This document shows, in pieces, positions 37,395 to 61,211 of a DNA stretch of 64,000 nucleotides. The stretch is from assembly GCA_021801795.1 (NCBI GenBank), contig JAJYXR010000031.1, forward strand, positions 1 through 64,000. Reading direction: 5' to 3'. The notes under the pieces were generated by a model, which saw nothing but the letters and a program-made list of their open reading frames with translations, did not search any database and was not told where the DNA came from. Made by a program: the position numbers and the translations under genes. How positions within the stretch are numbered: the first letter of the stretch is position 1; each line of letters starts with the position of its first letter. The stretch comes from Actinomycetes bacterium. Its GTDB lineage: Bacteria; Actinomycetota; Acidimicrobiia; Acidimicrobiales; JAJYXR01.

Positions 37395-37423
37395 GTCGGA
37401 TGCCTCACCCCGCCCTGTCGGCC

Positions 37424-37531
37424 GGGTCCGGGAGCCAGAGAGCAGCCCGCGGGTCCGGGAGCCAGAGAGCAGCCCGCGGGCCCGGGAGCCAGAGAGCAGC
37501 CCGCGGGCCCGGGAGCCAGAGAGCAGCCCGC
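37424..37531 (+). repeat. Four 27-bp tandem repeats between rplU and rpmA
   Basis: Copies start at 37424, 37451, 37478 and 37505. Units begin GGGTCCGGGAGCCAGAGAGC (first two) or GGGCCCGGGAGCCAGAGAGC (last two) and end AGCCCGC. Each junction makes the self-complementary CCCGCGGG, so the transcript could fold into a series of hairpins. There is no spacer, so it is not a CRISPR array. Confidence 0.95.
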
Positions 37532-37628
37532 GGGCTGAGCACGAGGTGGATCCGGGTCGCGTAGATACCGGTAGAGACGGAGTGTCCAGCTTGTCCGCTG
37601 GAGGCACGCAGATCGAGGAGAGGTAGGC

Positions 37629-39318: not shown

Positions 39319-40451
39319 GGAAGCCAGGAACGGTGAGCCAGGATTCTCAGGTAGACCACTCGATGACTGCCGTGGTGAAGGTGGGCTCCTCGTCCCTCAC
39401 GCTGCCGGACGGAGGCGTGGACGCGCAGGCGATAGGGCAGATCTGCTCCCAGGTGGCAGACATGGTCATGGCAGGGAACGTGGTGGTGGTGGTGACGTCG
39501 GGGGCCATCGCGGCAGGGTGGGCTGCCCTGGGGGGTGGTACCAGGCCAGCCGATCTCGCCACACTCCAGGCAGTGTCGGCTATCGGGCAGCACAGGCTGA
39601 TGCGGGTCTACGACGACAGCCTTGCCAGGGCCGGGCTCCATGTGGGACAGGTCCTGCTCGCCTCCATAGATTTCGCGGATCGCCGGCAGTACCTCCAGGC
39701 CCGCCAGACCCTAGGGAGGCTCCTGGAGCTGGGGGTGGTGCCAGTGGTGAACGAGAACGACGCGACCTCCGACGACGAGATCAGATTCGGCGACAACGAC
39801 CGGCTGGCCGCGCTGGTGGCCCAGATGGTCGCCGCGGACGTGCTGGTGCTCCTCACCGACGCCCCTGGGCTGCTCAGCGTCGACCCGAAGCTGAGCTCGA
39901 CCGGTACGCTCATCGAGGAGGTGGTGGAGATAGATCACCGGATCGAGGCAGTCGCAGGCGGCGCAGGCTCCGAAGCAGGCAGCGGGGGGATGGCGTCGAA
40001 GCTGGCAGCCGCGAAGATCGCCTCTTGGTCGGGCATCCGCACCGTGATAGCCGATGCGGCCAGGCCGGGTGTCATATCGGCGGCCCTGTCGGGGGAAGCC
40101 GGGGTAGGCACGGTGGTCCGACCCAGGGGCAGCCGGCTGCCCCAGCGCAAGCTCTGGATCGCGTTCGCGATCGGCGCAGCGGGGACGGTGGTGGTGGACG
40201 AGGGCGCGCGCTCCGCACTGGTCGGTGCGGACGCCTCGCTGCTGCCTGCAGGCGTGCTGGAGGTACATGGTGATTTCGACGCGGGCGAGGCCGTGGAGAT
40301 AGCGGGACCCGACGGGATCGTCTTCGCGAAGGGTCTTGCCCGTTCGTCCTCGGAGCGGGTCGCAGCGTGGGCAGGGCAGCGCACCGATGCCATCCCTGCC
40401 GGCTCTCCGGTGGAGGTGGTCCACCGCGACGACCTGGTGGTCCTCGTCTAG
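39315..40451 (+). CDS. proB: Glutamate 5-kinase
   Basis: A 378-residue kinase for the first step of proline synthesis. VVKVGSSSLT binds phosphate, VTSGAIAAGW and PVVNENDATSDDEIRFGDND mark the amino-acid-kinase core, and a C-terminal PUA domain is present (about 285-378). GTG 39315 overlaps the obgE stop; ATG 39363 would be a shorter alternative. The stop TAG (40449-40451) lies in the first copy of a 20-bp tandem repeat. Confidence 0.95.
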   Translation: MRKPGTVSQDSQVDHSMTAVVKVGSSSLTLPDGGVDAQAIGQICSQVADMVMAGNVVVVVTSGAIAAGWAALGGGTRPADLATLQAVSAIGQHRLMRVYDDSLARAGLHVGQVLLASIDFADRRQYLQARQTLGRLLELGVVPVVNENDATSDDEIRFGDNDRLAALVAQMVAADVLVLLTDAPGLLSVDPKLSSTGTLIEEVVEIDHRIEAVAGGAGSEAGSGGMASKLAAAKIASWSGIRTVIADAARPGVISAALSGEAGVGTVVRPRGSRLPQRKLWIAFAIGAAGTVVVDEGARSALVGADASLLPAGVLEVHGDFDAGEAVEIAGPDGIVFAKGLARSSSERVAAWAGQRTDAIPAGSPVEVVHRDDLVVLV

Positions 40452-40500
40452 AGTCCCTTGTCCTCGTCTAGAGTCCCTTGTCCTCGTCTAGAGTCCCTTG
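40441..40500 (+). repeat. Three 20-bp tandem repeats across the proB stop
   Basis: Three perfect copies (40441, 40461, 40481) of TCCTCGTCTAGAGTCCCTTG. The first copy holds the last codons and TAG stop of proB; later copies repeat TCTAG. The 20-bp period is not a multiple of three. The proA ribosome site AGGAG lies just after the array. Confidence 0.96.
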
Positions 40501-40521
40501 TCCCAGGAGCTAGCCTATGGC

Positions 40522-44977: not shown

Positions 44978-45004
44978 TCATAGCAGGCCATGGGGGGCTC
45001 GGAC

Positions 45005-48000
45005 ATGTGGAAGCTGCGAATGCTCACCTCGGTTGGGATCCTCCTCGGTGCCCTCATGGTGCTCGCGCCCTCCCTACCCGCAGGGGCCACTGCGCTACCT
45101 GGTGCCCGCACTGGAGCTGCCAGCCGCCAGGCGGCTTCCCTGCCATCGGGCGACAGCTACTTCCCACTGTCCCCGAGGCGGATAGCCGACACCCGTTGCT
45201 CGGCGCGCCCGGCTCCGGCCTTCTGTGGAGCTGAGTCGATCCCCGCTGCGAACGGTGCCCTGATGCCGCTCGGACCGGCTCCTGGATGGGGACCGCCTGC
45301 CGATCCGGACCAGGTGGGTGGGAACCTCGACTCGGTCTCCTGTGTCTCCCCTGCCTTCTGCGTGGCCATGGACAGGAGCGGGGAAGCCGCCACCTTCGAA
45401 TCGGGAGCCTGGTCGGCACCGGCTGCGGTTGCGCCCGCCTACCCGGGAGGATCGGACCTGGTCTCCTGCGCGACAGAGAAGTTCTGCATGGCGGTTGGCT
45501 CGGCGGGCTACGCCCTGTCCTTCGACGGATCGACCTGGTCGCCGCCCACCTACCTGGAGGCCAACGGTGGCATCACCTCGGTCTCCTGCGGATCCGACCG
45601 GTTCTGCGCAGCCGTGGATGCCTATGGCTCCGTCTTCACCTACAACGGCTCTGCCTGGTCTGCCCCGCTGCTCGTCGACCCAGGCGAAGACCTCACCTCT
45701 GTGGCCTGCACCAGCCCGAGCTTCTGCATGGCCGTGGATTCCTTCGGGCAGGCCATCACCTTCGACGGCGTCTCCTGGTCGACACCGGTTCAGGTCGGCC
45801 AGGCCTATGACGACCTCGACTCGGTGTCCTGTGCATCGGCATCCTGGTGCGCTCTGGGCTCGGGGGTGCCCGATGGAGGCTTGTTCACCTACGACGGGTC
45901 CGCGTGGACCGACTGGTCCTACGCGGACACCACCTCTCCTACTGAGTCTCTCTCCTGTACGAGCCCGAGCTTCTGTGTGGCCGTGGACTCGGCCGGAGAC
46001 GCGGTGAGCTTCGACGGAGCAACATGGGGGACCCCGGTGGCGGTCTCGGCCGGGGCCGCGCTCAGCTCTGTGTCCTGCACCAGCGCGAGCTTCTGCATGG
46101 CCCTGGACACCACCTCGAGCGCGTTCGTCCTCGGCTCCTCGGGCTGGTCTGCGTCCGGCTCCTTCGACCCGGTGCACGGAGACCTCACCTCGGTGTCCTG
46201 TGTCTCGGCTGCTTACTGCGTGGCGGTCGACTCCGAGGGCGAGGCGTTCAGCTATTCCGGCTCCTCGTGGTCCCTACCGGAGCTTGCCACCCCTGGGGCC
46301 GCGCTCAGCTCCGTCTCCTGTGCGAGCCCGAGTTTCTGCATGGCCGTGGACTCGGCCGGAGACGCGGTGAGCTTCGACGGAGCAACATGGGGGACCCCGG
46401 TGGCGGTCTCGGCCGGGGCCGCTCTCAGCTCCGTCTCCTGTGCGAGCCCGAGCTTCTGCATGGCCGTGGACTCGGCCGGAGACGCGGTGAGCTTCGAGGG
46501 CACCACCTGGGGCACCCCGGTGGCGGTCTCGGCCGGGGCCGCGCTCAGCTCCGTCTCCTGTGCGAGCCCGGTGTCCTGCCAGGCAGTGGACGGGCAGGGC
46601 CAGGCGGTTGGGTTCGGGCTGGTCTCACACGACACCGACGAGGTCCAGGTGGGGGGTGTGGGGGGAGTGCCGACTGGTGCCGCCGCGGCGGTGCTGAACG
46701 TCACCGCAGCCGCCCCTAGCTCTGCGGGCTACCTGAGCGTCTACCCGGCGGGCTCCCCGGTTCCGGCGACCTCGACCCTGAACTTCTCCGCGGGGCAGAC
46801 CGTGGCGAACCTGGTGGTGGCAGGCCTGTCGAGCTCGGGACAGATCCAGGTGAGCATCGGTGGATCGTCCGGCAGCGCCCAGGTGGTGATCGACGTCGAG
46901 GGCTATTTCGCTCCGGCTTCCCTGGGTTCCACAGGTGAGTCCTACGACCCGACTGCGCCGGTGAGGGTTCTGGACACCAGGTGCTTCGACCTCGAGTTCG
47001 TCCCGCCCGCGCCCTCGTACTGCGATTCTCTCCACGGGGCTCTGAGCCCGCCGATGGCGCTCGCGCCGCATTCCTCTCAGCGCCTGGCCCTGCCGGATGG
47101 GATCGCGTCAGCCTCCGCGGTGGTGGCGAACCTGACGGTGGTCGACGCCGGTGCCACGGGATACCTGACGGCCTACCCGCCTACCGACCCCATCCCGGAT
47201 ACATCGAGTGTCGACTTCGTGCCCGGCCAGACCGTGTCGAACGAGGCCTACGTCGCTCTGGCTGAGGGCGGCCTGGATCTCTACAACGGCTCGACTGCTC
47301 CACTGGAAGTGGTGGTGGACGTTGAGGGCTACTTCTCCACCACTGCCAGCTCAGGAGAGCTCTATTACCCACAGAGCCCGGAGCGCATCGCCGACACGCG
47401 CTGCGGCGGACCCGCCCCCCCGTCCTTCTGCGCTTCGGAGGACCTTCCGGTCGCGAACTCCGCCCTGTCTCCGCTCGGCTCCTATCCTGCCTGGTCGAAG
47501 CCCCTGGAGGTGGATCCCGGGAACTCCATCACCTCCGTCTCATGCGTCAGCGCGAGCTTCTGCATGGCCGTCGACTCAGCTGGCAACGCGCTCAGCTACG
47601 ACGGGGTCTCCTGGTCTGCCCCCGTTGAAGCCGATGCGGACACGGCTCTCGTGGCGGTGTCCTGTGCCACCACCGACTTCTGCGTGGCGGTGAACAGTTT
47701 CCAGGAGATCACATGGGATGGCACCTCCTGGAGCGGCCAGGAGGTGATAGACGACAACGTCGGCATCACTGCCATCTCCTGTCCGACGGCCGGATTCTGT
47801 GCGGTGGTCGACTCGTCGGGCGACGCGATCACCTATGACGGGACCAGCTGGACGGCGCCCGTGCTCCTCGATCCCGAGGTGGCCCTCACCTCGGTCTCCT
47901 GCGTGACCGCCAGCTACTGCATGGCAGTGGACGACGAGGGCAACGCCTTCTTCTGGAAAGGTTCCGCATGGTCCGGAGCAGATCCAGTCGATCCCCTGGG

Positions 48001-48502
48001 TGGTCTCTCCAGCGTGTCCTGTGTAGCTCCAGGGTCATGTACGGCAGTGGGTTATGGAGGTCACGTGTTCGCTGCCACGAGCGGTTCCTGGTCGGAGGAG
48101 GGCACAGCGGGGCCAGCCGGATACGACGCCTCCATATCCTGCGAGCTGTCTGGTGGTTGCATGGTGGCAGACGGGGCAGGTGATGTCTCGGACTACGCGA
48201 CTAGCTCCGACGCGCTCGACGTGGTCCAGGTGAGCGGGATCGACGGCGTAGCATCTGGCGCCGGTGCAGCCGTCCTGGACGTCACCGTCACCGGAGCCAC
48301 CCACAGCGGTTACATCACCGTCTACCCGGCGGGCACCGAGGAGCCCGAGACATCGACGGTGGACTTCCTCCCTGGCCAGACGGTGGCCGTGATGGCTCTG
48401 AGTGCTCTAGGTGCCTCGGGTGGCGTGGATGTGGCCATCGGCGCCCCCGTTGGATCCGTTCAGGTGGTCGTAGACCTGGAGGGCGATTTCACCGGCGAGT
48501 AG
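45005..48502 (+). CDS. Large secreted repeat protein (SVSC/SFC beta-propeller-like repeats with DTRC modules)
   Basis: A protein of 1165 residues with an N-terminal signal peptide (MWKLRMLTSVGILLGALMV, cleavage likely after PAGATA). Seventeen repeats of about 40 residues follow the pattern SVSCxSxSFCMAVDSxGxA, then FDGxxWSxP. Eleven lie in one block and six in a second. Paired Cys seven residues apart could form a disulfide per blade. Three modules like PLSPRRIADTRC, APVRVLDTRC and SPERIADTRC introduce segments that end in VVVDVEGYF. It is likely a secreted or surface beta-propeller adhesin or binding protein; the ligand is unknown. ATG 44990 is another possible start. No C-terminal anchor is seen. 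Confidence 0.88.
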   Translation: MWKLRMLTSVGILLGALMVLAPSLPAGATALPGARTGAASRQAASLPSGDSYFPLSPRRIADTRCSARPAPAFCGAESIPAANGALMPLGPAPGWGPPADPDQVGGNLDSVSCVSPAFCVAMDRSGEAATFESGAWSAPAAVAPAYPGGSDLVSCATEKFCMAVGSAGYALSFDGSTWSPPTYLEANGGITSVSCGSDRFCAAVDAYGSVFTYNGSAWSAPLLVDPGEDLTSVACTSPSFCMAVDSFGQAITFDGVSWSTPVQVGQAYDDLDSVSCASASWCALGSGVPDGGLFTYDGSAWTDWSYADTTSPTESLSCTSPSFCVAVDSAGDAVSFDGATWGTPVAVSAGAALSSVSCTSASFCMALDTTSSAFVLGSSGWSASGSFDPVHGDLTSVSCVSAAYCVAVDSEGEAFSYSGSSWSLPELATPGAALSSVSCASPSFCMAVDSAGDAVSFDGATWGTPVAVSAGAALSSVSCASPSFCMAVDSAGDAVSFEGTTWGTPVAVSAGAALSSVSCASPVSCQAVDGQGQAVGFGLVSHDTDEVQVGGVGGVPTGAAAAVLNVTAAAPSSAGYLSVYPAGSPVPATSTLNFSAGQTVANLVVAGLSSSGQIQVSIGGSSGSAQVVIDVEGYFAPASLGSTGESYDPTAPVRVLDTRCFDLEFVPPAPSYCDSLHGALSPPMALAPHSSQRLALPDGIASASAVVANLTVVDAGATGYLTAYPPTDPIPDTSSVDFVPGQTVSNEAYVALAEGGLDLYNGSTAPLEVVVDVEGYFSTTASSGELYYPQSPERIADTRCGGPAPPSFCASEDLPVANSALSPLGSYPAWSKPLEVDPGNSITSVSCVSASFCMAVDSAGNALSYDGVSWSAPVEADADTALVAVSCATTDFCVAVNSFQEITWDGTSWSGQEVIDDNVGITAISCPTAGFCAVVDSSGDAITYDGTSWTAPVLLDPEVALTSVSCVTASYCMAVDDEGNAFFWKGSAWSGADPVDPLGGLSSVSCVAPGSCTAVGYGGHVFAATSGSWSEEGTAGPAGYDASISCELSGGCMVADGAGDVSDYATSSDALDVVQVSGIDGVASGAGAAVLDVTVTGATHSGYITVYPAGTEEPETSTVDFLPGQTVAVMALSALGASGGVDVAIGAPVGSVQVVVDLEGDFTGE
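45960..46559 (+). repeat. Near-identical 120-bp blade repeats
   Basis: Three units of 120 bp (about 45960-46079, 46320-46439 and 46440-46559) encode SPSFCMAVDSAGDAVSF, then a TWGTPVAVSAGAALSSVS segment, nearly base for base. The other blades are much more diverged, so these three come from recent duplication or gene conversion. Confidence 0.88.
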
Positions 48503-51525: not shown

Positions 51526-52659
51526 TCAGGGCCGGGGGCTGGGGGTTCCGTCGAGTATGCGCCGGACGGTCTCGATGGCCTGTTCTATACCCTCCTCCGC
51601 TACCAGCCTGTGTGCCAGGCAGGCGACGGCCACTGCCTTCACGTCGCCTGGCACCACATGGGACCTGTGGGAGATCACGGCATGAGCCCTCGCGGCCCTG
51701 AGAAGCCAGATCGTGGCCCGGGGGCTCGCTCCCAGGCGTATGCCCGGTGCGGTCCGGCTGGCCCTGGAGAGCTCGACCGCGTATGAGGCGATCGCGGGTG
51801 CCACGGGTATCGCTTCGGTTGCCCGTTGGGCATCGAGCCAGGCGGCCGGGCTGCAGACAGGGCCGAGGGAGTCGATGGCGTTTGATCCGGCCTGCCTCAG
51901 GGCGAGCCTGGCCTCGTCCTCCGGTGCCGGATAGCCGATCGAGGTGGCCAGGGCGAAGCGGTCCCGCTGGCTTTCCACCAGTGGGAAGGTTCCGAGCTCC
52001 GTGACCGGGTTCTGGGTGGCGAGAACCAGGTGGGGCCTCGGGAGTGGCCGCGTGAGGCCGTCCGCGCTGACCTGGCCCTCCTCCATCGCCTCCAGGAGCG
52101 CCGCCTGGGTTCTCGGAGGAGTCCGGTTCAGCTCGTCGAAGAGGACCACATCTGCGAACACCGGGCCTGGCCTGAACTGCCAGGTGCCGTCAGCGGGCGA
52201 GAACACCGAGACGCCGGTTACGTCGGAAGGCAGGAGGTCGGGGTGCCCCTGGATCCTGGCCAGGTTCCCGCCAAGGCTGATCGCCAGGCTGCGAGCGAGC
52301 ATGGTCTTGCCCACCCCAGGTACGTCCTCGATGAGCAGGTGGCCACCTGCCAGGCAGGCGATGACCGCCGCGGCAAGTGCACCAGGGGATCCGAGCACCA
52401 CCCTGGACAGGTTCCGCCCGAGCGCCTCGCCAAGCGTCATCGCCATCTCCACGCCAGCCTGACCCACGCCAGCCTGACCCACGCCAGCCTGACCCACGCC
52501 AGCCTGACCCACGCCGGGCCGTAGAGCGTCGCTGGCGGGCGCGGCGCGAGCCAGGTCGCTGGCAGCCGGGTCGCCGGACGCGGGCGCCGGTGGGCTGCCC
52601 TCGGTGCTATGAGCGGGGCTGGTGCCGGCCGGCCAAGTAGTTGGTTCCACGCCTGCCAC
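51526..52659 (-). CDS. MoxR-family AAA+ ATPase with repeat-bearing N terminus
   Basis: A 377-residue ATPase. The AAA core starts at MTLGEALGRNLSRVVLG (about 73 on). Walker A is EDVPGVGKTMLARSL, Walker B VVLFDELNRTPPRTQAALLE and sensor 1 LVLATQNPVTELGTFPL. The first 72 residues are low complexity with four GVGQA units and look added. The ATGs within MAM/MTLGEALG (near 52447-52441) may be the original start. It is the first gene of the MoxR-DUF58-TgpA operon. Confidence 0.92.
   Translation of the reverse strand: MAGVEPTTWPAGTSPAHSTEGSPPAPASGDPAASDLARAAPASDALRPGVGQAGVGQAGVGQAGVGQAGVEMAMTLGEALGRNLSRVVLGSPGALAAAVIACLAGGHLLIEDVPGVGKTMLARSLAISLGGNLARIQGHPDLLPSDVTGVSVFSPADGTWQFRPGPVFADVVLFDELNRTPPRTQAALLEAMEEGQVSADGLTRPLPRPHLVLATQNPVTELGTFPLVESQRDRFALATSIGYPAPEDEARLALRQAGSNAIDSLGPVCSPAAWLDAQRATEAIPVAPAIASYAVELSRASRTAPGIRLGASPRATIWLLRAARAHAVISHRSHVVPGDVKAVAVACLAHRLVAEEGIEQAIETVRRILDGTPSPRP
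52451..52510 (-). repeat. 15-bp tandem repeat in the MoxR N-terminal region
   Basis: Four perfect copies (52451, 52466, 52481, 52496) of ACGCCAGCCTGACCC on the plus strand, read on the minus strand as GVGQA. It lies just upstream of the conserved ATPase core and keeps frame. Confidence 0.95.
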
Positions 52660-52722: not shown

Positions 52723-54180
52723 TCAGAAATCCAGTGCTGACAGCTCGGGTATGGTCCTGAGCGAGCGCTCTCTCGCCTGGAGCCACCTGGCGCGCCTGGC
52801 CTGGCGGTCGGCCTCTGTCCGGGCAGGCTCTAGGACGCGGCTGGGGGACCAGAGGGAGGAGACCTCCTCCTCGCCTGACCAGACGCCGGTGGCGATGCCC
52901 GCGAGGTAGGCCGCTCCGAGGGTGGTGGCCTCGGTCAGCGGGGCGACCTCGACAGGCCGTCCTATGGCATCTGCGAGGGATTGGACGAAGGTGGCGTTCG
53001 CGCACATCCCCCCGTCGACTCTGAGGCTGCTCACCTCTAGACCGGTATCGGCCTCGGCTGCTTCCAGTAAGTCGGCGCCCCGGTGGGCGATCCCATCCAG
53101 CACGGCGCGTACCACCTCGGCACGTCCGGTCCCGCGGGTGAGGCCGATCAGGGTGCCGCGGGCACCGAAGTCCCACAGTGGCGTGCCTATTCCCATGAGC
53201 GCGGGCACGAACCAGACGTCTGCGTCGGGAGCCCCAGCGCCAGCCAGATCGTCGGACTGTGCGACATCGGAGATGATGCCGAGGTCGTCCCGGAGCCACT
53301 CCACGCAGCTGCCGGCCGATAGCATCAGTGCTTCGACTCCCCAGGTCAGATGCTTGTCGCGTTTCCAGGCCACTATGGGGATGGTGCCCGATGGTCCCCG
53401 TGCGGGGAAAGCCGGCCGCTGGGACCCTACACAGCAGTCGAGCATGCCGCCGGTGCCGAAGGTGGCCTTGGCCATACCCGGTAGGGTGCATCCCTGCCCG
53501 AACAGGGAGGCCTGCTGGTCGCCGACGATCCCGGCAATGGGTGGGGCGCCGTCGAGGGCGGTGGCCGGCCCCAGGGTCGCGGAGGAGTCCACGAGCTCCG
53601 GCAGCACCGATAGGGGTATCCGGAGGGCCTCGAGCACCCGGTGGTCCCAACCGGATCCGTCGGCCTCGAGCATTCCGGTGACCCCAGCGTTGGTGGCATC
53701 GGTGACGTGCAGGGAGCCCTCGGAGAGGATCCAGGCGACCCATGTGTCGACGGTACCGAAGCACAGGTCGCGCTCGCGACCAGGGTCGGCCATGTCGAGG
53801 AGCATTGCCAGCTTCGTAGCCGAGGCATTCGGAGCCAGGCGTATCCCATCGGCCTGGAGGGCAAGGCAGGTTCCCACGGTACGCAGGTCCTGCCAACCGA
53901 TTCCAGGGCCGACAGGCTGTCCGGAGGAGCGCTCCCAGACGATGGTGGAGGCTCGCTGGTTCGCTATCCCGACTGCCTGCACCGGGCCGCCATCAGCTAG
54001 GGCACGGGCCGCGACCTGGTGGACCGCGGATGCCATCGCGAGAGGGTCTATCTCGACTAACCCCGGCGCCGGGGTGGCAGGGAGCACGGGAAGGTGGTGA
54101 ATGTGGTCGACCGAGGCGTCGGGACGGACGACAGCCGCACGTACACCGGAGGTGCCGACGTCTACCACCAGGACGCTCAT
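52723..54180 (-). CDS. glpK: Glycerol kinase-like FGGY carbohydrate kinase
   Basis: A 485-residue FGGY-family kinase. The N-terminal VLVVDVGTSGVRAAVV, the substrate region GIANQRASTIVWERSSGQPV (20 residues), WQDLRT, VGDQQASLFGQGC and KATFGTGGMLDCCVG follow the glycerol kinase plan. The signature MGIGTPLWDFGARGTLIGLT lies in the second half. It is translationally coupled to the FAD oxidase (ATGA) and lies in one operon with glpD, so phosphorylation of glycerol to G3P is very likely, though another triose or polyol cannot be excluded. The open frame continuing upstream to 54723 is a shadow. Confidence 0.9.
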   Translation of the reverse strand: MSVLVVDVGTSGVRAAVVRPDASVDHIHHLPVLPATPAPGLVEIDPLAMASAVHQVAARALADGGPVQAVGIANQRASTIVWERSSGQPVGPGIGWQDLRTVGTCLALQADGIRLAPNASATKLAMLLDMADPGRERDLCFGTVDTWVAWILSEGSLHVTDATNAGVTGMLEADGSGWDHRVLEALRIPLSVLPELVDSSATLGPATALDGAPPIAGIVGDQQASLFGQGCTLPGMAKATFGTGGMLDCCVGSQRPAFPARGPSGTIPIVAWKRDKHLTWGVEALMLSAGSCVEWLRDDLGIISDVAQSDDLAGAGAPDADVWFVPALMGIGTPLWDFGARGTLIGLTRGTGRAEVVRAVLDGIAHRGADLLEAAEADTGLEVSSLRVDGGMCANATFVQSLADAIGRPVEVAPLTEATTLGAAYLAGIATGVWSGEEEVSSLWSPSRVLEPARTEADRQARRARWLQARERSLRTIPELSALDF

Positions 54181-55760
54181 GGCCAGGCCACCTCGCCGAA
54201 GTCGCAGGGCAGGCCGAGCTTTCCTGGGTTCATGATCCCCTTCGGGTCCAGCGCGCGCTTTATCGAGCTGAGCACGCCGAAGCTCTCGCCGATGGCAGGC
54301 TCGAGGAAGCGGGATCTGTTCAGGCCGATCCCGTGGTGGTGGCTTATGGCTGCCCCGTAGTCCGTGACCACCTCCATCACGGCTCGCCAGGCAGCGTTGT
54401 AATAACTTTCCTCCCAGCTGGCGTCCTTCCACGAGAAGGAGCCGTCGGGGGAGCGGCCTGCGAAGGTGAAGTAGATGCAGGCGCCGTCCAGGTACGAGTG
54501 GGACTGGTGAGCGGATGCGACCAGGGTGCCCTCCAGCTCTCCCAGGGCCCCGACACAGGATTCGTATAGGGAGCTCAGAGAAGACCATCGGCCGGCCACC
54601 TCTATGGTGTCCACGACCACCCCGGACTGGTAGAGGGGGGCGAGGGCGGACACGTCGTTCCTGTGCGCCAGCCACCTCGCGACCAGCGAGTCGTCGAGAC
54701 GGCTTGCACCGCCGCCAATGCACTCCCGATCCACGATCGCGTCGGTGGCCTCCAGGATCGCCGGCTCTGCCTCGTCCAGCACCAGCAGCAGGGAGGTCCC
54801 GGTGACGCCGAAGTTCCGCTCGGACTCGGCCGGGTCATAGAGGCGCAGCACGGCCGGCGTGCTCCCGGCGCGCAGGATCCTCCTGCAGGCGTCCAGGCCA
54901 TCGGCGAAGGAACCGAACCCGTAGGCGCGCCGGGTCTCCGCGGGGGGCAGCGGATGCAGCCTCAGCCATGCGCTGGTCACCACGCCGAAGGTTCCTTCGG
55001 AGCCGACGAACACCTGGGTGAGGTCGGGTCCCATGGCCGCCCTCGGGGAGGCAGTGCCGGTGTGCACCACGCGGCCGTCTGCCAGGACCACCTCGAGGCC
55101 GAGCACCATGTCCTCGATCTTGCCGTAGCGGGTGGAGTACTGACCTGCTCCCCTGCAGGCGATCCAGCCACCCAGCGTGGACAGGTCCATGGACTGGGGC
55201 CAGTGCCCCAGGGTCAGCCCCTCGGCCCTCAGCGCCGCCTCCAGGTCCGGCCCGAAGGTGCCCGCAGCGACCCTCGCCACCAGCGAGTCGTGGTCGAGGT
55301 CGATGACCCCGCTCATGGCGGTCGTGTCCAGGGCTACGCCGCCGAAGACCGGCACGCTCCCTCCGCATACGCCTGAGCGTCCTGCCAGCGGGGTGATCGG
55401 CACCCCCGCGTCGTTACAGGCGGCGAGGACGCCACTGACCTGGTCGGTGCTCCCTGGCCGGGCAAGGGCTGCTGCACGGGCGGGAACCTGGCCCCCCAGT
55501 GCCCACCCGATGCTGATCGGCCACCAGTCGCGCCCTGCCTCCGCCAGCTCGGCAGGGGAAGTCGTCAGCTCATCGCATATGGCGCTGAGACGACCGACCA
55601 GGGCCGGATCGGGGTCCAGGCGGGTACCGCCTAGGCGTTCCGATGCTGTTTCTGGCGACCCATCGATGGCAACCGGTGCTCTGGGAGCGATGGTGGCAGC
55701 CCCCACATGCTGCTGTGCTCGGTCCTCGGGGGGCTCGCCGGCGGGGGATGCTGGTTTCAC
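54177..55760 (-). CDS. FAD-linked oxidase, alkyl-DHAP synthase-like
   Basis: A 527-residue flavoprotein of the VAO/FAD-binding-4 class. The FAD loop reads ITPLAGRSGVCGGSVPV, and STLGGWIACRGAGQYSTRYG, GSEGTFGVVTSAWLRL, a C-terminal HHHGIGLNRSRFLE and DPKGIMNPGKLGLP follow. HHHGIG is shared with alkyl-dihydroxyacetonephosphate synthase, so ether-lipid synthesis or oxidation of a glycerol-derived acid are possible. It lies between glpD and glpK. The GTG start at 55760 lies in the last copy of a 50-bp tandem repeat; the first 35 residues are unconserved-looking. Confidence 0.88.
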   Translation of the reverse strand: MKPASPAGEPPEDRAQQHVGAATIAPRAPVAIDGSPETASERLGGTRLDPDPALVGRLSAICDELTTSPAELAEAGRDWWPISIGWALGGQVPARAAALARPGSTDQVSGVLAACNDAGVPITPLAGRSGVCGGSVPVFGGVALDTTAMSGVIDLDHDSLVARVAAGTFGPDLEAALRAEGLTLGHWPQSMDLSTLGGWIACRGAGQYSTRYGKIEDMVLGLEVVLADGRVVHTGTASPRAAMGPDLTQVFVGSEGTFGVVTSAWLRLHPLPPAETRRAYGFGSFADGLDACRRILRAGSTPAVLRLYDPAESERNFGVTGTSLLLVLDEAEPAILEATDAIVDRECIGGGASRLDDSLVARWLAHRNDVSALAPLYQSGVVVDTIEVAGRWSSLSSLYESCVGALGELEGTLVASAHQSHSYLDGACIYFTFAGRSPDGSFSWKDASWEESYYNAAWRAVMEVVTDYGAAISHHHGIGLNRSRFLEPAIGESFGVLSSIKRALDPKGIMNPGKLGLPCDFGEVAWP

Positions 55761-55810
55761 GGCTGTGCTCGGTCCTCGGGGGGCTGGCCGGCGGGGGATG
55801 CTGGTTTCAC
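55757..55810 (-). CDS. Possible 17-residue mini-ORF 2 in the glpD-oxidase chain
   Basis: Same 17-residue peptide as mini-ORF 1. Its GTG (55810) overlaps the stop of mini-ORF 1, and its TGA (55757-55759) overlaps the oxidase GTG at 55760. The oxidase N terminus repeats the same peptide with one change (Gln9 to Glu). Confidence 0.35.
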   Translation of the reverse strand: MKPASPAGQPPEDRAQP

Positions 55811-55860
55811 GGCTGTGCTCGGTCCTCGGGGGGCTGGCCGGCGGGGGATGCTGGTTTCAC
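55807..55860 (-). CDS. Possible 17-residue mini-ORF 1 in the glpD-oxidase chain
   Basis: GTG start overlapping the glpD stop, then a peptide MKPASPAGQPPEDRAQP, then TGA overlapping the next GTG. No independent Shine-Dalgarno site is visible; translation would depend on coupling. It probably exists only to pass ribosomes on, or is a by-product of repeat expansion. Confidence 0.35.
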   Translation of the reverse strand: MKPASPAGQPPEDRAQP

Positions 55861-57620
55861 GGTCGTGATAGATCGAGACCCGCGGCCGACCATTCCCTGC
55901 GGGTAGCCTCTGCGAAGGCGGCGGCCTGGGAGGTCGCGTCGTCGGTGCTCATCCCTAGCTCCGCGGCGACGAGCTGCGCTATCTCCCCGGCAGCACAAAC
56001 CGTGTCGGCTGCCCGGCGGATCACCGCGCGGGTGCGGCGCGCCAGCAGGTCGTCAAGCGTGAGCGCCATCTCGTGTCGGACTGCCCAGAGGGCCTCGACT
56101 CGCAGGTGGGGCAGCCCCTCGACGAGGGGCGCGAGAAGTGCAGTATCCCCCTTGGCGAGGGCCAGCACATCTGGTGCCTCGGTGCCGTACCGCCCTATCA
56201 GGCACGACCAGGTGGCCTCGTCTACTCCGGAGTCCTTGGCTGCTCCGGCTGAGCCGAGCTCCTCGAGGCGGCTGGCGTCCGAGGACCCCCTGATGGCGAG
56301 CCGAGCTGTCACGCTCTTCGAGGCTACACCTGGGACAGTGGAGCCGAGCAGACCCGCAGCAGCGTCCACGGTATCCTCGGCCATCCTCCTGTAGGTGGTG
56401 AGCTTGCCACCGGTGACGGTCACCAGGCCGCTTGGCGACACCCGCACCTTGTGCCTCCTGGACAGGTCGGCAGTTCTGGCGCTGGGTGCCCGGCCGGTAT
56501 TGCTGGGTGCCAGCAGTGGCCGGAGCCCCGCCCATATTCCGGTGACGTCATCGCGTGTCACCGGTGTGGTCAGCAGCGCGGAGGCTGCGTCGATGAGGTA
56601 GTCGACGTCCTCGGGCGTGCAGAGAGGGCCATCGAGCGGACCGTCGAAGTCGGTGTCGGTGGTCCCTATGTACACGTCTCCGCCGTCTGGCCACGGCACC
56701 ATGAAGATCGACCGTCGGTCTCGCCTCACCGGCAGCACCGCAGCTATGTCGGCAGGTATCTTCGAGCGGGGGAAGCTGAGGTGTATGCCCTTGGCAGGAC
56801 GCAGGGAGTGGGGATGGGTGGCCTCGTCCAGAGCGCGGATGTCGTCGGCCCATACCCCAGTGGCGTTGACGACTACCGAAGCGGACACCTCGATCTCGCT
56901 GGCAGTGCCACCGTTACCGCCACCGCGACCTTTACCGGGCCCGGGAGCCGTGGGCCGCACCTTCGCACCCCGCACCGCACCGCTCGAGTCGTGTAGGAGG
57001 CCGGTCACCTCGACGTAGTTCGCGGCGACTGCTCCGAAGTCGAGTGCAGCGGTGCGGACTATGGATAACGTCAGGCGTGCGTCATCGGCCCTGGCATCGA
57101 AGTACAGGAATCCTGCCGCCAGGTGGTCGGTACGCAGGGTCGGTAAGTGTCCCTCGACGGCGCTCCTGGTGATCCGCTGGTGACGTTTGCCTATTCTCAG
57201 GCCACCGGTCAGGTCGTACAGCCACAGGGCAGTCGAGTAGGTGCGTGCCACGTTCCGGTTCACCATGCCTTCCCGACCGAAGAGGGGTATGAGGAATGGG
57301 AGAGGGGACACCAGATGGGAAGCGTTGTCGAGCAGCCTCTGGCGCTCGTGGAGTGCTTCGTAGACCAGCCGGAAGTCGTGCTGCTGGAGGTAACGCAGCC
57401 CGCCGTGGACCATCTTGGAGGACTTGGAGGATGTCCCGGATGCGAAGTCGTGGCGTTCTACCAGCGCAGTACGCAGTCCGCGCGATGCGGCATCCAGCGC
57501 CACGCCCGCCCCGGTTATGCCCCCGCCCACTACCAGGACGTCGAATCTCTCGTCGGCCAGGCGTTCGAGCATGCGAGACCGCTCGAAGCCTCCTGGTCTG
57601 CCTGGGGGAGGCGAAGGCAC
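55857..57620 (-). CDS. glpD: FAD-dependent glycerol-3-phosphate dehydrogenase
   Basis: A 587-residue membrane-associated flavoprotein that oxidises G3P to DHAP. The FAD motif is VLVVGGGITGAGVALDAASR, followed by ERHDFASGTSSKSSKMVHGG (20 residues), LRYLQQHDF, WPDGGDVYIGTTDTDFDG and VTGGKLTTYRRMAED. A C-terminal helical domain is present. About 15 residues (PGPGKGRGGGNGG) form a low-complexity insert near residue 230. GTG 57620 or ATG 57572 may be the start; the latter has GGAGG upstream. The stop TGA overlaps the first GTG of the mini-ORF repeat. Confidence 0.94.
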   Translation of the reverse strand: MPSPPPGRPGGFERSRMLERLADERFDVLVVGGGITGAGVALDAASRGLRTALVERHDFASGTSSKSSKMVHGGLRYLQQHDFRLVYEALHERQRLLDNASHLVSPLPFLIPLFGREGMVNRNVARTYSTALWLYDLTGGLRIGKRHQRITRSAVEGHLPTLRTDHLAAGFLYFDARADDARLTLSIVRTAALDFGAVAANYVEVTGLLHDSSGAVRGAKVRPTAPGPGKGRGGGNGGTASEIEVSASVVVNATGVWADDIRALDEATHPHSLRPAKGIHLSFPRSKIPADIAAVLPVRRDRRSIFMVPWPDGGDVYIGTTDTDFDGPLDGPLCTPEDVDYLIDAASALLTTPVTRDDVTGIWAGLRPLLAPSNTGRAPSARTADLSRRHKVRVSPSGLVTVTGGKLTTYRRMAEDTVDAAAGLLGSTVPGVASKSVTARLAIRGSSDASRLEELGSAGAAKDSGVDEATWSCLIGRYGTEAPDVLALAKGDTALLAPLVEGLPHLRVEALWAVRHEMALTLDDLLARRTRAVIRRAADTVCAAGEIAQLVAAELGMSTDDATSQAAAFAEATRREWSAAGLDLSRP

Positions 57621-57664
57621 CAGCTAAGCCTGCCACAGTGCCGGCGAGCACATATCGTAAGTAC

Positions 57665-57694
57665 TTGTCAATCAATAATCCTTGGTATAGGATT
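57665..57694. promoter_or_regulatory. Promoter with inverted-repeat operator between glpD and fur/perR
   Basis: TTGTCA (57665-57670) and TATAGG (57686-57691), 15 bp apart, resemble -35 and -10 boxes for the Fur-family gene at 57704. An inverted repeat AATCCT-N6-AGGATT (57677-57694) covers the -10, as expected for an autoregulatory Fur/PerR site. The region is AT-rich compared with its surroundings. Confidence 0.55.
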
Positions 57695-57703
57695 CTGGTT
57701 GAC

Positions 57704-58150
57704 ATGAGATCACCGGACGACCTGACGAAGCTCTTTCGTTCGACTGGCCGTAAGGTGACACCCCAGCGCCAGTGCATCTTTCGCATTCTCCAGGGCGATG
57801 CCACCCACCCGACTGCCGAGTCGGTCTACATGGCTGCACGATCGGAGATGGAGACGATCTCGCTGAAGACCGTGTACCAGACCCTCCACGAGCTGGCGGC
57901 TCTGGGCCAGCTCGTGCCCATGGACGTCGGAACCGGCACCACGCGCTTCGACCCCAATGTGGAAGAGTCGCACCACCACCTGGTATGCAGGTCATGTGGA
58001 AAGGTCCGTGATCTGTTCGCAGACTTCAGCGGGCTGAAGGTGCCGCCGGGCGCAGGGGAAGGATTCGAGGTCGGTGAGGCAGAGGTGGTATTCCGTGGAC
58101 TCTGCGACGAGTGCCTGAGGAGCGAGCCCCAGCAGCTAGCTGCCCCATGA
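57704..58150 (+). CDS. Fur family transcriptional regulator (PerR-like)
   Basis: A 148-residue metalloregulator. The winged helix contains GRKVTPQRQCIFRILQGDAT and TISLKTVYQTLHELAALGQL (20 residues). HHHLVCRSCGKVRDLF is the dimerisation/metal region, and a second Cys pair, CDECLR, completes the structural zinc site. ATG 57704 lies about 12 bp after the putative -10. With rubrerythrin downstream, a peroxide-sensing PerR role is more likely than iron uptake control, but this is inference. The frame stays open upstream to 57296, which is not coding. Confidence 0.93.
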   Translation: MRSPDDLTKLFRSTGRKVTPQRQCIFRILQGDATHPTAESVYMAARSEMETISLKTVYQTLHELAALGQLVPMDVGTGTTRFDPNVEESHHHLVCRSCGKVRDLFADFSGLKVPPGAGEGFEVGEAEVVFRGLCDECLRSEPQQLAAP

Positions 58151-58237
58151 GTCTCGCCTCCGGGCGAGCCTGCTGCACCCGGCCGAGGCGCAGCGAAAAT
58201 CTAGACATAGAAACCATCCAGATAAAAGGAGACAACA

Positions 58238-58660
58238 GTGGCACCTGCACTAAAGGGAACAAAGACGGAGGAGAACCTGAAGGCAGCCTTTGCCGGAGAG
58301 AGCCAGGCGAACCGTCGCTACCTCTACTTCGCGCAGAAGGCCGACGTGGAAGGCTACCCGGACATCGCGGCCCTCTTCCGTTCGGTTGCCGAAGGAGAGA
58401 CCGGTCATGCTTTCGGGCACTTCGACTTCCTGGCCGAGGTGGGTGACCCCGTGACCGGCGTGCCGGTCGGACCCACGGAGGACAACCTGAAGTCGGCCAT
58501 CGAGGGCGAGACCTACGAGTACACGGAGATGTACCCGGGATTCGCGCGCGTCGCTCGTGAGGAGGGACTCGAGGAGATCGGGGAGTGGCTGGAGACGCTT
58601 GCGAAGGCCGAGAAGAGCCACGCGGGGCGCTTTACGGAGGGCCTGAAGTCGCTCGCCTGA
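58238..58660 (+). CDS. Rubrerythrin (diiron domain only)
   Basis: A 140-residue ferritin-like diiron protein that reduces peroxide. Ligand-bearing segments are FAGESQANRRYLYFAQKAD, EGETGHAFGHFDFL, IEGETYEYTEMYPGFARVAR (20 residues) and KAEKSHAGRF. The C-terminal rubredoxin domain of classical rubrerythrins is absent, so electrons must come from a partner; the Fe-S protein downstream is a candidate. GTG 58238 is preceded by AAAAGGAG. Its position after a Fur/PerR gene suggests peroxide control. Confidence 0.93.
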   Translation: MAPALKGTKTEENLKAAFAGESQANRRYLYFAQKADVEGYPDIAALFRSVAEGETGHAFGHFDFLAEVGDPVTGVPVGPTEDNLKSAIEGETYEYTEMYPGFARVAREEGLEEIGEWLETLAKAEKSHAGRFTEGLKSLA

Positions 58661-58741: not shown

Positions 58742-58849
58742 ATGACAAGATCGCGCTCCGCGAGCCCCTGGCTTCAGCCATGGGGTCAAGGCGGCGCTGG
58801 CGGCGTAGCCGCCTATCAACGTCAGTGTCACCCCCTCCACATAGGATGA
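58742..58849 (+). pseudogene. Original start of the CCG Fe-S gene, cut off by the IS605-like element
   Basis: AAGGAG (58728-58733) stands 8 bp before ATG 58742, a strong ribosome site. The frame reads ATG ACA and then runs into the element for 33 more codons, ending at TGA 58847-58849. That TGA overlaps the TnpB ATG (ATGA). Removing 58748-59789 joins ATG ACA to AGA GTC ACC TAC, giving MTRVTYNPSEPGY, a natural beginning for the Fe-S protein. The site is therefore the displaced host start. The 35-residue product itself looks meaningless. Confidence 0.75.
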
Positions 58850-59791
58850 AAGCAGTGCCGAAGCCTGTCCACAAGCCAATGGGCCGCTACAAGGTCAAGT
58901 CAGATCGCTCACGCAAGCGCCCGAAGGACGCGCCTGCCTTCGTCTGCACGATCCCGCTTAGGGCGACGCCTAGGGCGGCCAAGGCAGCCGAAGGCCGCTT
59001 CGAGGTAGCCAGGCTGCACTACGACGCCTGCCTTGGCGAGTGCTTCCGGCGCGTAGAGAAGATCCGTCGAGATCCGAGGTACGAAGCTGCGAAGCCAATG
59101 CCAAAGCGGGTGGAGGGGCGGTCGAACCCTGAGCGCTCTGCCCTCTATAGGTCCTTGCGGGCAGACCATGGCTTTACTAAGAGGGACCTTGGAACCTACG
59201 GCTCATCCCTAAGAAGGGACTTCGTGCGGCTCCATGTGGGTGCCCAGGAGGCCCAGGTGCTAGCCGAGCGGGCCTACGACGCTGTGAACGCCTGGTTCAT
59301 GGGCGAACGAGGTCGCCCGAGGTTCAAGGGGAAGGGACATGGACTGCACTCCCTCGTCGTGAAGGACGGTAACGGCGACATCAAGATCAACTCCGATGGG
59401 TCGGGTATCACGTGGGCAGGGACGGCCTTCTCCTTCGTTCTCGCGCCGAGCGATCCTGTGTACTTCTTCTCAGCGCTTCACGTGGCCTCGGGCAGGCTCC
59501 TTCGGGTAGGAATAACGAGGACGATGATCCGAGGACGCCCCACCTACAGGACGCTCTTGGTCCTAGATGGCGTGCCTCTGAAGCGCTACGCACGCGTAGG
59601 TGTCCAGCCTGCGTTGGAGCTGCTCGCGGCGAACACCCAAAACCTCATTCCACGCACGGGCAACGCGCCCGTGCCTCCGGTGAAACCGGAGATGAGCTCA
59701 GCGTCACCTAGGTCTGTTGTCGAAGTCCTGGCAGTAGAGGCGGTGTCGTGAAAGGGGAACCCCCTGGCTTTAGCCATGGGGAGGATGTCAG
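58748..59791 (+). mobile_element. IS200/IS605-like element remnant (tnpB only) with paired end hairpins
   Basis: An element of about 1.04 kb, with boundaries known to 2 bp (58748-59789 or 58750-59791). Both ends carry the same imperfect hairpin, stems CCCCTGGCT and AGCCATGGGG around a 2-nt loop (TC at 58765-58785, TT at 59761-59781). A small hairpin TCGCG-CTC-CGCGA lies at the left end. There is no target duplication, as in this family, which moves as single-stranded DNA. No TnpA is present, so it cannot move by itself. The right end GGGGAGGATGTCAG resembles IS1341-type termini. Confidence 0.82.
58846..59751 (+). CDS. Truncated/internally deleted TnpB-like protein lacking the RuvC domain
   Basis: A 301-residue TnpB-family remnant (full TnpB is about 370-500). 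Residues 1-210 match the N-terminal RNA/DNA-binding part: VCTIPLRATPRAAKAAEGRF, RFKGKGHGLHSLVVKDGNG, and the strand region RGRPTYRTLLVLDGVPLKRY. At the point where RuvC motif I (VGLDLG) should appear, the chain reads ARVGVQPALELLAANTQNL and ends within 50 residues, with no DED catalytic residues and no CxxC zinc finger. It may be a decaying gene or a nuclease-less RNA-binding derivative. Its ATG and TGA overlap flanking frames (ATGA, GTGA). Confidence 0.75.
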   Translation: MKAVPKPVHKPMGRYKVKSDRSRKRPKDAPAFVCTIPLRATPRAAKAAEGRFEVARLHYDACLGECFRRVEKIRRDPRYEAAKPMPKRVEGRSNPERSALYRSLRADHGFTKRDLGTYGSSLRRDFVRLHVGAQEAQVLAERAYDAVNAWFMGERGRPRFKGKGHGLHSLVVKDGNGDIKINSDGSGITWAGTAFSFVLAPSDPVYFFSALHVASGRLLRVGITRTMIRGRPTYRTLLVLDGVPLKRYARVGVQPALELLAANTQNLIPRTGNAPVPPVKPEMSSASPRSVVEVLAVEAVS

Positions 59792-61211
59792 AGTCACCTA
59801 CAACCCTTCGGAGCCTGGGTACTTCGACGACGAGGATCTGCGGGGGGAGATGGATCGTGTCTTCGACCTCTGCCACGGTTGCCGGCTCTGTTTTAACCTC
59901 TGCCCCTCCTTCCCGACGCTGTTCTCCTACGTGGATGCCCACGACGGAGACGCATCAGCGATGTCGCGTGCCGAGCAGGATCAGGTGGTGGACGAGTGCT
60001 ACCAGTGCAAGCTTTGCTATGCGAAGTGCCCGTATGTCCCTCCTCACGAGTGGGAGCTCGACTTCCCGCGATTGATGATGCGGGCACATGCGGTCGCAAA
60101 GCGCACCGGCGCGCCCCTGAGGGAGCGCATGACAGACCAGGTAATGAACCGGACCGATCTGGTAGGAAAGCTGTCGAGTGCGCTGGCCCCCCTGGTCAAT
60201 CGTCTGGTCTCCGAGCCGGAGACCCTGGCCCGACGCGTCATGGAGGGAGCGACCGGCATCTCGTCCAAGCGCCTCCTGCCGCCCTATAGGAGGCAGCGCT
60301 TCACCACCTGGTTTGCCCGGCGGGCCGGCATGGCAGGCCGGCCTTCAGATGGTGTGGCTGGCTCGGCCGGCACCCCCGGCTCGGCCGGCACCCCCGGCTC
60401 GGCCGGCACCCCCGGCTCGGCCGGCACCCCCGGCTCGGCCGGCACCCCCGGCTCGGCCGGCACCGAGAGGAAGGTGAGCGTCTTTCCCACCTGCTTCATC
60501 GAGTACATGGCACCTGGTATCGGGAAGGACCTCGTCCGCGTCTACGAGCACAACGGTGTCCGCTGCTCTCTGCCGGCAGGGACCAGGTGCTGTGGTGCGC
60601 CATGGCTTCATTCGGGAAACGTAGACCAGTTCGTGTCGTCGGCTCGTGCCAACGTGGCATCCCTGGCGCCGGAGGTGAGGGCCGGGTGCGACGTGATCGT
60701 CGCGCAGCCGACCTGCGCCTATGTGCTGAGGAAGGATTACCCCCTCTACCTCGGTACTCCGGACGCGCAGCTGGTGGCAGAGCACACCTTCGATCCAGCG
60801 GAATACCTCATGGCACTCCATAAGGCTGAGGGAGGTGGGCTGCGGACAGACTTCGTCGCCGTCGAATCGGGCCAGGTGCCAGCCAGGGTCACCTACCACC
60901 TGGCCTGTCACCTGCGTGCCCAGATGATCGGTTTCAAGAGCCGTGATCTGCTGAAGGTGGCAGGCATAGCCGTTGACATGATCCAGGAGTGCTCTGGGAT
61001 AGATGGCACGTGGGGCTACCGGGCTGCTAACTACGACTTGGCACGCAAGGTGGCAGAGCCTCTCAGGAGGAAGGTGGCCGATATCCCTGGTCAGGATGTA
61101 TGCGGTGACTGCCATCTAGCCAACGTGGCGATATACGAGGAGACCGGGAAGCGGTCTGTCCACCCGATAGAGCTGCTGGCGATGGCCTATGGCCTGCACG
61201 AGGAAGGGTAG
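59748..61211 (+). CDS. CCG-domain Fe-S oxidoreductase (heterodisulfide reductase/GlpC-like), 5' end supplied by an IS element
   Basis: A 487-residue iron-sulfur protein. Two [4Fe-4S] ferredoxin motifs are CHGCRLCFNLCP and CYQCKLCYAKCP. Two CCG-type regions follow (RCCGAPWLHSGN; CHLRAQMIGFKSRD with CSGIDGTWG; VCGDCHLANVA). GSAGTP repeats are inserted near 205-240. The conserved chain begins RVTYNPSEPGYFDDEDLRG. The preceding 14 residues are translated from the right end of the IS605-like element, and GTG 59748 overlaps the TnpB stop. It probably feeds electrons to the rubredoxin-less rubrerythrin with DUF3501. This module logic is inferred from gene neighbourhood. Confidence 0.88.
   Translation: MKGEPPGFSHGEDVRVTYNPSEPGYFDDEDLRGEMDRVFDLCHGCRLCFNLCPSFPTLFSYVDAHDGDASAMSRAEQDQVVDECYQCKLCYAKCPYVPPHEWELDFPRLMMRAHAVAKRTGAPLRERMTDQVMNRTDLVGKLSSALAPLVNRLVSEPETLARRVMEGATGISSKRLLPPYRRQRFTTWFARRAGMAGRPSDGVAGSAGTPGSAGTPGSAGTPGSAGTPGSAGTPGSAGTERKVSVFPTCFIEYMAPGIGKDLVRVYEHNGVRCSLPAGTRCCGAPWLHSGNVDQFVSSARANVASLAPEVRAGCDVIVAQPTCAYVLRKDYPLYLGTPDAQLVAEHTFDPAEYLMALHKAEGGGLRTDFVAVESGQVPARVTYHLACHLRAQMIGFKSRDLLKVAGIAVDMIQECSGIDGTWGYRAANYDLARKVAEPLRRKVADIPGQDVCGDCHLANVAIYEETGKRSVHPIELLAMAYGLHEEG
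60360..60467 (+). repeat. 18-bp in-frame tandem repeat in the CCG Fe-S gene
   Basis: Six copies of GGCTCGGCCGGCACCCCC (60360, 60378, 60396, 60414, 60432, 60450; the last ends CACCGAG) encode GSAGTP six times. It lies between the ferredoxin part and the first CCG domain, probably a linker. Confidence 0.96.

Follow-up and report, generated by a model that had tools for sequence, protein, structure and literature searches.

How does a ribosome that has terminated on one gene of an operon reach the start of the next when repeated sequence holds the two apart? The question is raised by a junction in the genome of an Acidimicrobiales bacterium, within a stretch of 64,000 nucleotides (contig JAJYXR010000031.1 of assembly GCA_021801795.1; hereafter the window). 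There, on the minus strand, a glpD-like gene is followed after a gap of 96 nt by a gene for an FAD-linked oxidase, and the junction is spanned by a 50-bp tandem array containing two short open reading frames (mini-ORFs) joined by overlapping stop and start codons. Judging from the sequence, we consider it probable that the array arose by local tandem duplication of a translationally coupled junction and was retained because its unit length preserves termination-reinitiation. Several questions lead to this answer. What does the array consist of? Why should its unit be 50 bp long? What did the junction look like before its expansion? Do other junctions behave in the same way?

Tandem Repeats Finder (TRF) places a single array across the glpD/oxidase junction, with a period of 50, 3.0 copies, 99% matches and a score of 295, and the direct-repeat spacings in it are 50 and 50. 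The minus strand reads ...CGACC GTGA (55860), then GCC GTGA (55810), then GCC GTGA (55760), the glpD stop being the TGA at 55859-55857. Translation from the GTGs at 55860 and 55810 yields in each case VKPASPAGQPPEDRAQP and a stop (17 codons), and that from the GTG at 55760 stays open as VKPASPAGEPPEDRAQQHVGAATIAP...; the copies are identical but for a single base, the last having GAG in place of CAG. An earlier sequence-only reading had described GTG...TGA copies chained by GTGA overlaps, the first overlapped by the glpD stop and the last forming the oxidase N terminus. TRF, the direct repeats and frame translation confirm this description, two of the copies being closed 17-codon ORFs. With the array at three copies, glpD and the oxidase share a reading frame (frame 1, 55650-55920, minus strand) and a lone TGA separates them; this would not be so with one or two copies. 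In the host genome and 20 relatives, the 50-bp unit has a full-length match at its own locus alone, with short and weak G+C-rich matches elsewhere; a mobile or dispersed repeat is rejected, as no comparable copy of the unit lies elsewhere in these genomes. A known structured RNA was likewise dropped as a candidate, as Rfam at its gathering threshold gave no match to any RNA family across 54000-58500.

The unit length can be understood from the overlap itself. In NTGA the TGA sits one base after the start, and the next copied TGA lies at N + 1 for a unit of N nucleotides, so that start and stop are in frame when N leaves a remainder of two on division by three (2 mod 3); neither protein is then altered, and there is a start at each stop. 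A unit of 0 mod 3 lets translation from the first start continue into the downstream gene, which gains an N-terminal extension; a unit of 1 mod 3 makes the path touch every second copy and arrive at the gene at odd copy numbers alone. The observation that the period of 50 equals 54 minus the 4-bp overlap holds, and the same identity applies whenever the unit length is 2 mod 3. It is also correct that 50 cannot be divided by three; far from being a drawback, this is central to the design, since 2 mod 3 is the class that keeps the proteins and the stop/start links. Many units of 14 nt found elsewhere read NTGAGG..., with start, stop and a pairing site for the next start in one motif, which would probably serve all three purposes together.

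What the junction looked like before expansion is indicated by relatives. In 49 of 105 loci holding both glpD and the oxidase, a set that includes some duplicates of one locus, the two genes are joined by a direct NTGA overlap (the oxidase N terminus at one such plain overlap is MTVPTPVTPIDA), and homologues of the oxidase start at the glpD stop overlap. Array units bearing the overlap occur at this junction in three lineages only of the set. Besides the window, these are the nearest relative (L017, from genome G001), which belongs to another genus of the same family and has an oxidase 68-69% identical, and L104 of genome G045, from another family. In L017 glpD ends in ATGA, and a 17-bp unit repeated six times gives five mini-ORFs, MTGPRP and a stop, ahead of the oxidase ATG at 2938; in L104 the steps are 23 and 14 nt long and the mini-ORFs read MTTVPTVP and MTTVP, each followed by a stop. 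Because the unit sequences are unrelated, these arrays are independent expansions, and the lengths 50, 17, 23 and 14 are all 2 mod 3. The suggestion that a start/stop junction had been expanded is thus strongly supported: plain GTGA and ATGA junctions are common in relatives, and the glpD/oxidase junction has been expanded in two further lineages as well. L057 carries at 2749-2812 a 33-bp duplication that includes the TAG stop of glpD and is without an overlapping start. Four loci (L049, L075, L089 and L090) are titled Bifidobacterium breve, yet hold Acidimicrobiia-like glpD/oxidase loci and look like mislabelled metagenome-assembled genomes (MAGs).

Does the rule hold at other junctions? The survey took in some 1.9 Mb of sequence from G000, G001 and G045, in which genes were called by a simple program, and individual loci in addition. 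Searching for NTGA-linked mini-ORFs with no repeat requirement gave many chance matches in G+C-rich ORFs, and filters for repeat identity and coding character were therefore added; a filter on G+C content at third codon positions (GC3) wrongly excluded the downstream genes of the window and L017, because of the unusual N termini of these oxidases, and a small gene caller was used in its place. Over unit lengths of 0, 1 and 2 mod 3, tandem arrays inside genes were distributed 262:5:1 and those between genes 76:40:36. Duplications that copy the stop of a gene at a same-strand junction were sought in an unbiased way; in 11 of these arrays an NTGA-type stop had been copied, and the stop-start path to the downstream gene was kept in 11 of 11. 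The sole unit of 1 mod 3 among them, 40 bp at L187, is present in three copies, so that the path is closed at 2 x 40 = 80 nt; an array entered at 28 consists of two 14-nt units. The 15 arrays at stops without an overlapping start were spread 4:4:7. One array that served as a control lies in the window itself, a perfect 20-bp x 3.2 array over another junction (40440-40503) with a TAG stop in its first copy and no overlapping start, the next gene's likely ATG being just past the array with AGGAG upstream.

Over all detections, homogeneous NTGA arrays numbered 14 with units of 2 mod 3, 4 with 0 mod 3 and 1, the compensated case, with 1 mod 3; the 14 are those of the window, L017, L104, L044, L168 (two), L175, L178, L212, L216, L217, L234 and L245 and of the locus shared by L267, L268 and L271. 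Three mixed-length arrays also close the path (18 + 17 at L258; 14 then 44 and 14 then 32 at the other two, L246 and L264), and in every clear NTGA case stops and starts lead without a break into the downstream gene. The ratio of 2 to 1 mod 3 is 14:1 at NTGA arrays vs 58:54 in intergenic, gene-end and non-overlap arrays (Fisher p = 0.0019), a bias beyond that of the controls, on counts that are modest. Left out of the count were L169, the N = 32 array of L163 and L024, whose upstream ORFs are not coding-like, and arrays in antisense or coding DNA (L028; window 46367 and 18375); a 19-bp GTGAGG array in L165 (G001) is intergenic. Individual arrays differ considerably in make-up. On the minus strand of L234 (3970-4104, G001:C50), about five to six copies of a 26-bp unit with GGAGGG and ATGA form a chain of MSTATGGRE peptides, each closed by a stop, and L216 has a 14 x 5 array at another gene pair. 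Near position 1500 of L267, L268 and L271 a 14-bp array (ATGAGGCTGAGACG) lies between two ORFs, with two mini-ORFs in L267 and L271 and three in L268, from related species, the path being kept in each. The claim that copy number can vary without loss of coupling finds support in this junction and in the mod-3 bias.

For ATG-type arrays, an order-wide pattern scan points in the same direction. Among ATGAGG triplets in 397 genomes, arrays of similar units stand at 15:1 for 2 vs 1 mod 3 with homologous loci collapsed, the second 16-nt entry, in G209, being really an 8-nt unit; control CTGAGG triplets stand at about 8:8 among the matches listed (218 genomes, hand tally, any genomic place).

These data are best accommodated by the following scheme. 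In the ancestral state the glpD TGA would have overlapped the GTG or ATG of the oxidase by 4 nt, and ribosomes finishing glpD would have re-initiated on the oxidase. Two duplications of a 50-bp segment that includes the overlap would then have followed. With 50 being 2 mod 3, the start in each copy is in frame with the TGA of the next, and a terminating ribosome would meet a start at every step. The predicted route is glpD, 17 codons, 17 codons, oxidase, with both proteins unchanged and the handover kept. Such duplications would recur in the repeat-rich genomes of these bacteria, those of 2 mod 3 (a mini-ORF chain) and of 0 mod 3 (an N-terminal extension) being tolerated; path-breaking units (1 mod 3 at even copy number) would rarely be retained because, as we propose, the downstream gene needs the delivered ribosome. 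In published reporters, coupling was strongest at overlaps and, in six native pairs, nearly gone by about 20 nt, while no more than the final 15 nt of the upstream gene was required for it (PMC10666635); weaker, longer-range coupling has been reported too (PMC12548453). Because a gap of 96 nt should not couple without them, coupling of glpD to the oxidase most likely runs through the two mini-ORFs, and ribosomes probably re-initiate at each step. Potential pairing sites vary among arrays. A weak GAGGA lies 12 nt upstream of the mini-ORF 2 start (duplex -5.9 kcal/mol) and, being carried by the unit, precedes copies 2 and 3; the glpD array of G001 has none, and each unit of L234 has a strong Shine-Dalgarno site (-10 kcal/mol).

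A junction expansion that keeps coupling thus appears well supported, and against it a number of points have to be set. The first junction (55857..55860), which is without the unit-borne GAGGA, has no usable Shine-Dalgarno site (duplex -2.2 kcal/mol). GTGAGG triplets stand at only about 7:5 among the matches listed, tallied as for CTGAGG, and ATG and GTG types pooled differ from the control with p = 0.09; the support given by the pattern scan is therefore confined to ATG-type arrays. Against same-strand non-overlap junction arrays alone (7:4), the bias of NTGA arrays falls short of significance (p = 0.13). Several searches contributed to the 14 cases, and many arrays come from G001; the window and L017, having failed the downstream filter, were retained on homology, and the upstream ORF of L217 lacks a coding-like profile. 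All assemblies are MAGs, that is, draft metagenome assemblies.

Could mutation by itself produce the excess of 2 mod 3? In 3-periodic coding DNA, phase-matched microhomology would favour such units with coupling playing no role, and across a junction codon-phase microhomology is indeed richer at 2 mod 3, because the two genes are read in frames one base apart; among 240 plain junctions the bias over 1 mod 3 was 1.2-1.5-fold (k = 3-6). The effect is real but too small for 14:1, 14 of 15 having p ~0.002-0.005 under it, and it does not predict the path closure by mixed-length arrays and by the 40-bp array. We regard mutational bias only as distinctly unlikely, and selection, not mutation, as the probable source of the excess. 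Selection might also act on dose: each reinitiation step would lose a fraction of the ribosomes, so that copy number would set the oxidase:glpD ratio, whether selected or contingency-like. Copies that are 99% identical are readily gained or lost, copy number differs between related species (L267/L271 and L268), and the same junction was expanded independently in three lineages, all of which would suit adaptive tuning; arrays at many unrelated gene pairs of the same genomes are, however, what tolerated duplications would give. Adaptive tuning of oxidase dose is possible, although we think it unlikely, and tolerance of harmless duplications, with purifying selection on coupling, fits the data at least as well.

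The remaining alternatives concern the oxidase start and the array itself. If the oxidase started at the in-frame GTG 55706 or de novo, the array would be an inert spacer, and the oxidase N terminus before the conserved region is in fact variable and longer than in most homologues; yet pairing upstream of 55706 is weaker (-3.5 vs -5.9 kcal/mol), homologues begin at the overlap with the glpD stop, and the mod-3 bias would be left unexplained, which makes independent initiation quite improbable. That short-read assembly invented the copy number is highly improbable: the array, at 150 bp, is close to the length of a short read and the host genome is a draft of 2.5 Mb in 43 contigs, but short-read assemblers usually collapse such repeats, a single base marks the last copy, and analogous arrays, some just 14-50 bp long, occur in many independent assemblies. 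A programmed glpD-oxidase fusion, made by readthrough or frameshifting at the single TGA present at three copies, would profit from frame 1 being open across the array save for that codon; since the same-frame state hinges on copy number and is absent from G001 (5 x 17 nt) and from plain overlaps, it is scarcely credible.

The features of the locus are collected in Table 1. The minus-strand operon reads glpD - mini-ORF - mini-ORF - oxidase - glpK, and every joint is a 4-nt overlap of the kind known from coupled pairs, GTGA at 55860, 55810 and 55760 and, between the oxidase TGA and the glpK ATG, ATGA at 54180-54177, which the sequence-only reading had not mentioned. The best NCBIfam matches of glpD are glycerol-3-phosphate oxidase/dehydrogenase models, all under their curated cut-offs, and that of the kinase is glycerol kinase, also under the cut-off.

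Table 1. Features at the glpD/oxidase junction and in its operon (window positions).
Feature	Position	Strand	Evidence
glpD-like FAD-dependent glycerol-3-phosphate dehydrogenase (upstream gene A)	55857..57620	-	ORF; Pfam DAO PF01266 + DAO_C PF16901
50-bp tandem array, 3.0 copies, 99% identical	55712..55862	-	TRF + direct-repeat search
GTGA overlap 1 (glpD stop, mini-ORF 1 start)	55857..55860	-	sequence reading
Mini-ORF 1 (GTG...TGA), peptide VKPASPAGQPPEDRAQP	55807..55860	-	frame translation
GTGA overlap 2 (mini-ORF 1 stop, mini-ORF 2 start)	55810-55807	-	
Mini-ORF 2, peptide identical to that of mini-ORF 1	55757..55810	-	frame translation
GTGA overlap 3 (mini-ORF 2 stop, oxidase start)	55760-55757	-	
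FAD-linked oxidase (downstream gene B), 527 aa	54177..55760	-	ORF; Pfam FAD_binding_4 + FAD-oxidase_C
glpK-like FGGY kinase (gene after oxidase)	52723..54180	-	ORF, Pfam, NCBIfam

The host genome is rich in tandem duplications. Minisatellites of the window at 52449-52515, 60360-60464, 37423-37535 and 8241-8342 have units of 15, 18, 27 and 15/30 bp, multiples of three, and a diverged 120-bp x 5 repeat (45951-46570) lies within the large ORF 44990-48502. The ORF at 58846-59751 resembles, by eye, a transposon-associated OrfB/TnpB-type protein.

The in vivo role of 4-nt overlaps across bacteria has been tested in few species so far. Junction-copying arrays amount to natural experiments in this respect, as most unit lengths leave the downstream protein untouched; a bias toward path-keeping lengths would therefore mean that the stop-start path itself is under selection, and coupling would become testable by sequence alone in uncultured lineages. 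The independent expansions in related bacteria, nearly always by lengths that preserve the link, point to a second gene whose translation relies on ribosomes passed on from the first.

How does the array compare with known systems? No report of local, non-mobile junction expansions or of a length rule was found in the open-access literature. Classical tandem-repeat contingency loci alter frame or promoter spacing; here, too, copy number could alter expression, but the unit lengths of junction arrays avoid breaking the path. Gene pairs overlapping by 4 nt and using termination-reinitiation (PMC6728339, PMC10666635) are widespread and share the identical TGA over the next start, but known cases have one junction per pair, repeated here two to six times via mini-ORFs. 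The iraD leader ORF (PMC5574718) also hands ribosomes to the next gene, but is a single, non-repeated ORF with a known regulator, CsrA, and has neither array nor length rule. The closest known system seems to be the mycobacterial interspersed repetitive unit (MIRU), in which, as cited in PMC12548453 from Supply et al. 1997, the unit contains an ORF that is coupled, at a spacing of -4 nt, to the gene beside it. At senX3-regX3 there are three 77-bp units in H37Rv and two of 77 plus one of 53 in CDC1551 (PMC4213456); both lengths are 2 mod 3. MIRUs, whose copy number varies between strains, and the 50-bp array both belong to one phylum, and are alike as tandem repeats placed between the genes of an operon and in having a short unit ORF joined by a -4 nt overlap. 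They differ in that MIRUs are a dispersed, apparently mobile family, whereas the 50-bp unit is confined to its locus and each junction here has its own unit of 8-50 bp, built from the local junction; structures like MIRUs may thus be able to form with no mobile element involved. A tentative and rather doubtful extension would be that acidimicrobial genomes repeatedly make MIRU-like mini-ORF arrays locally, that the length rule assays coupling genome-wide and that copy number is an evolvable dial for the ratio of two proteins. The 50-bp array would work as a MIRU array does, but is at most a candidate MIRU, its unit not being dispersed.

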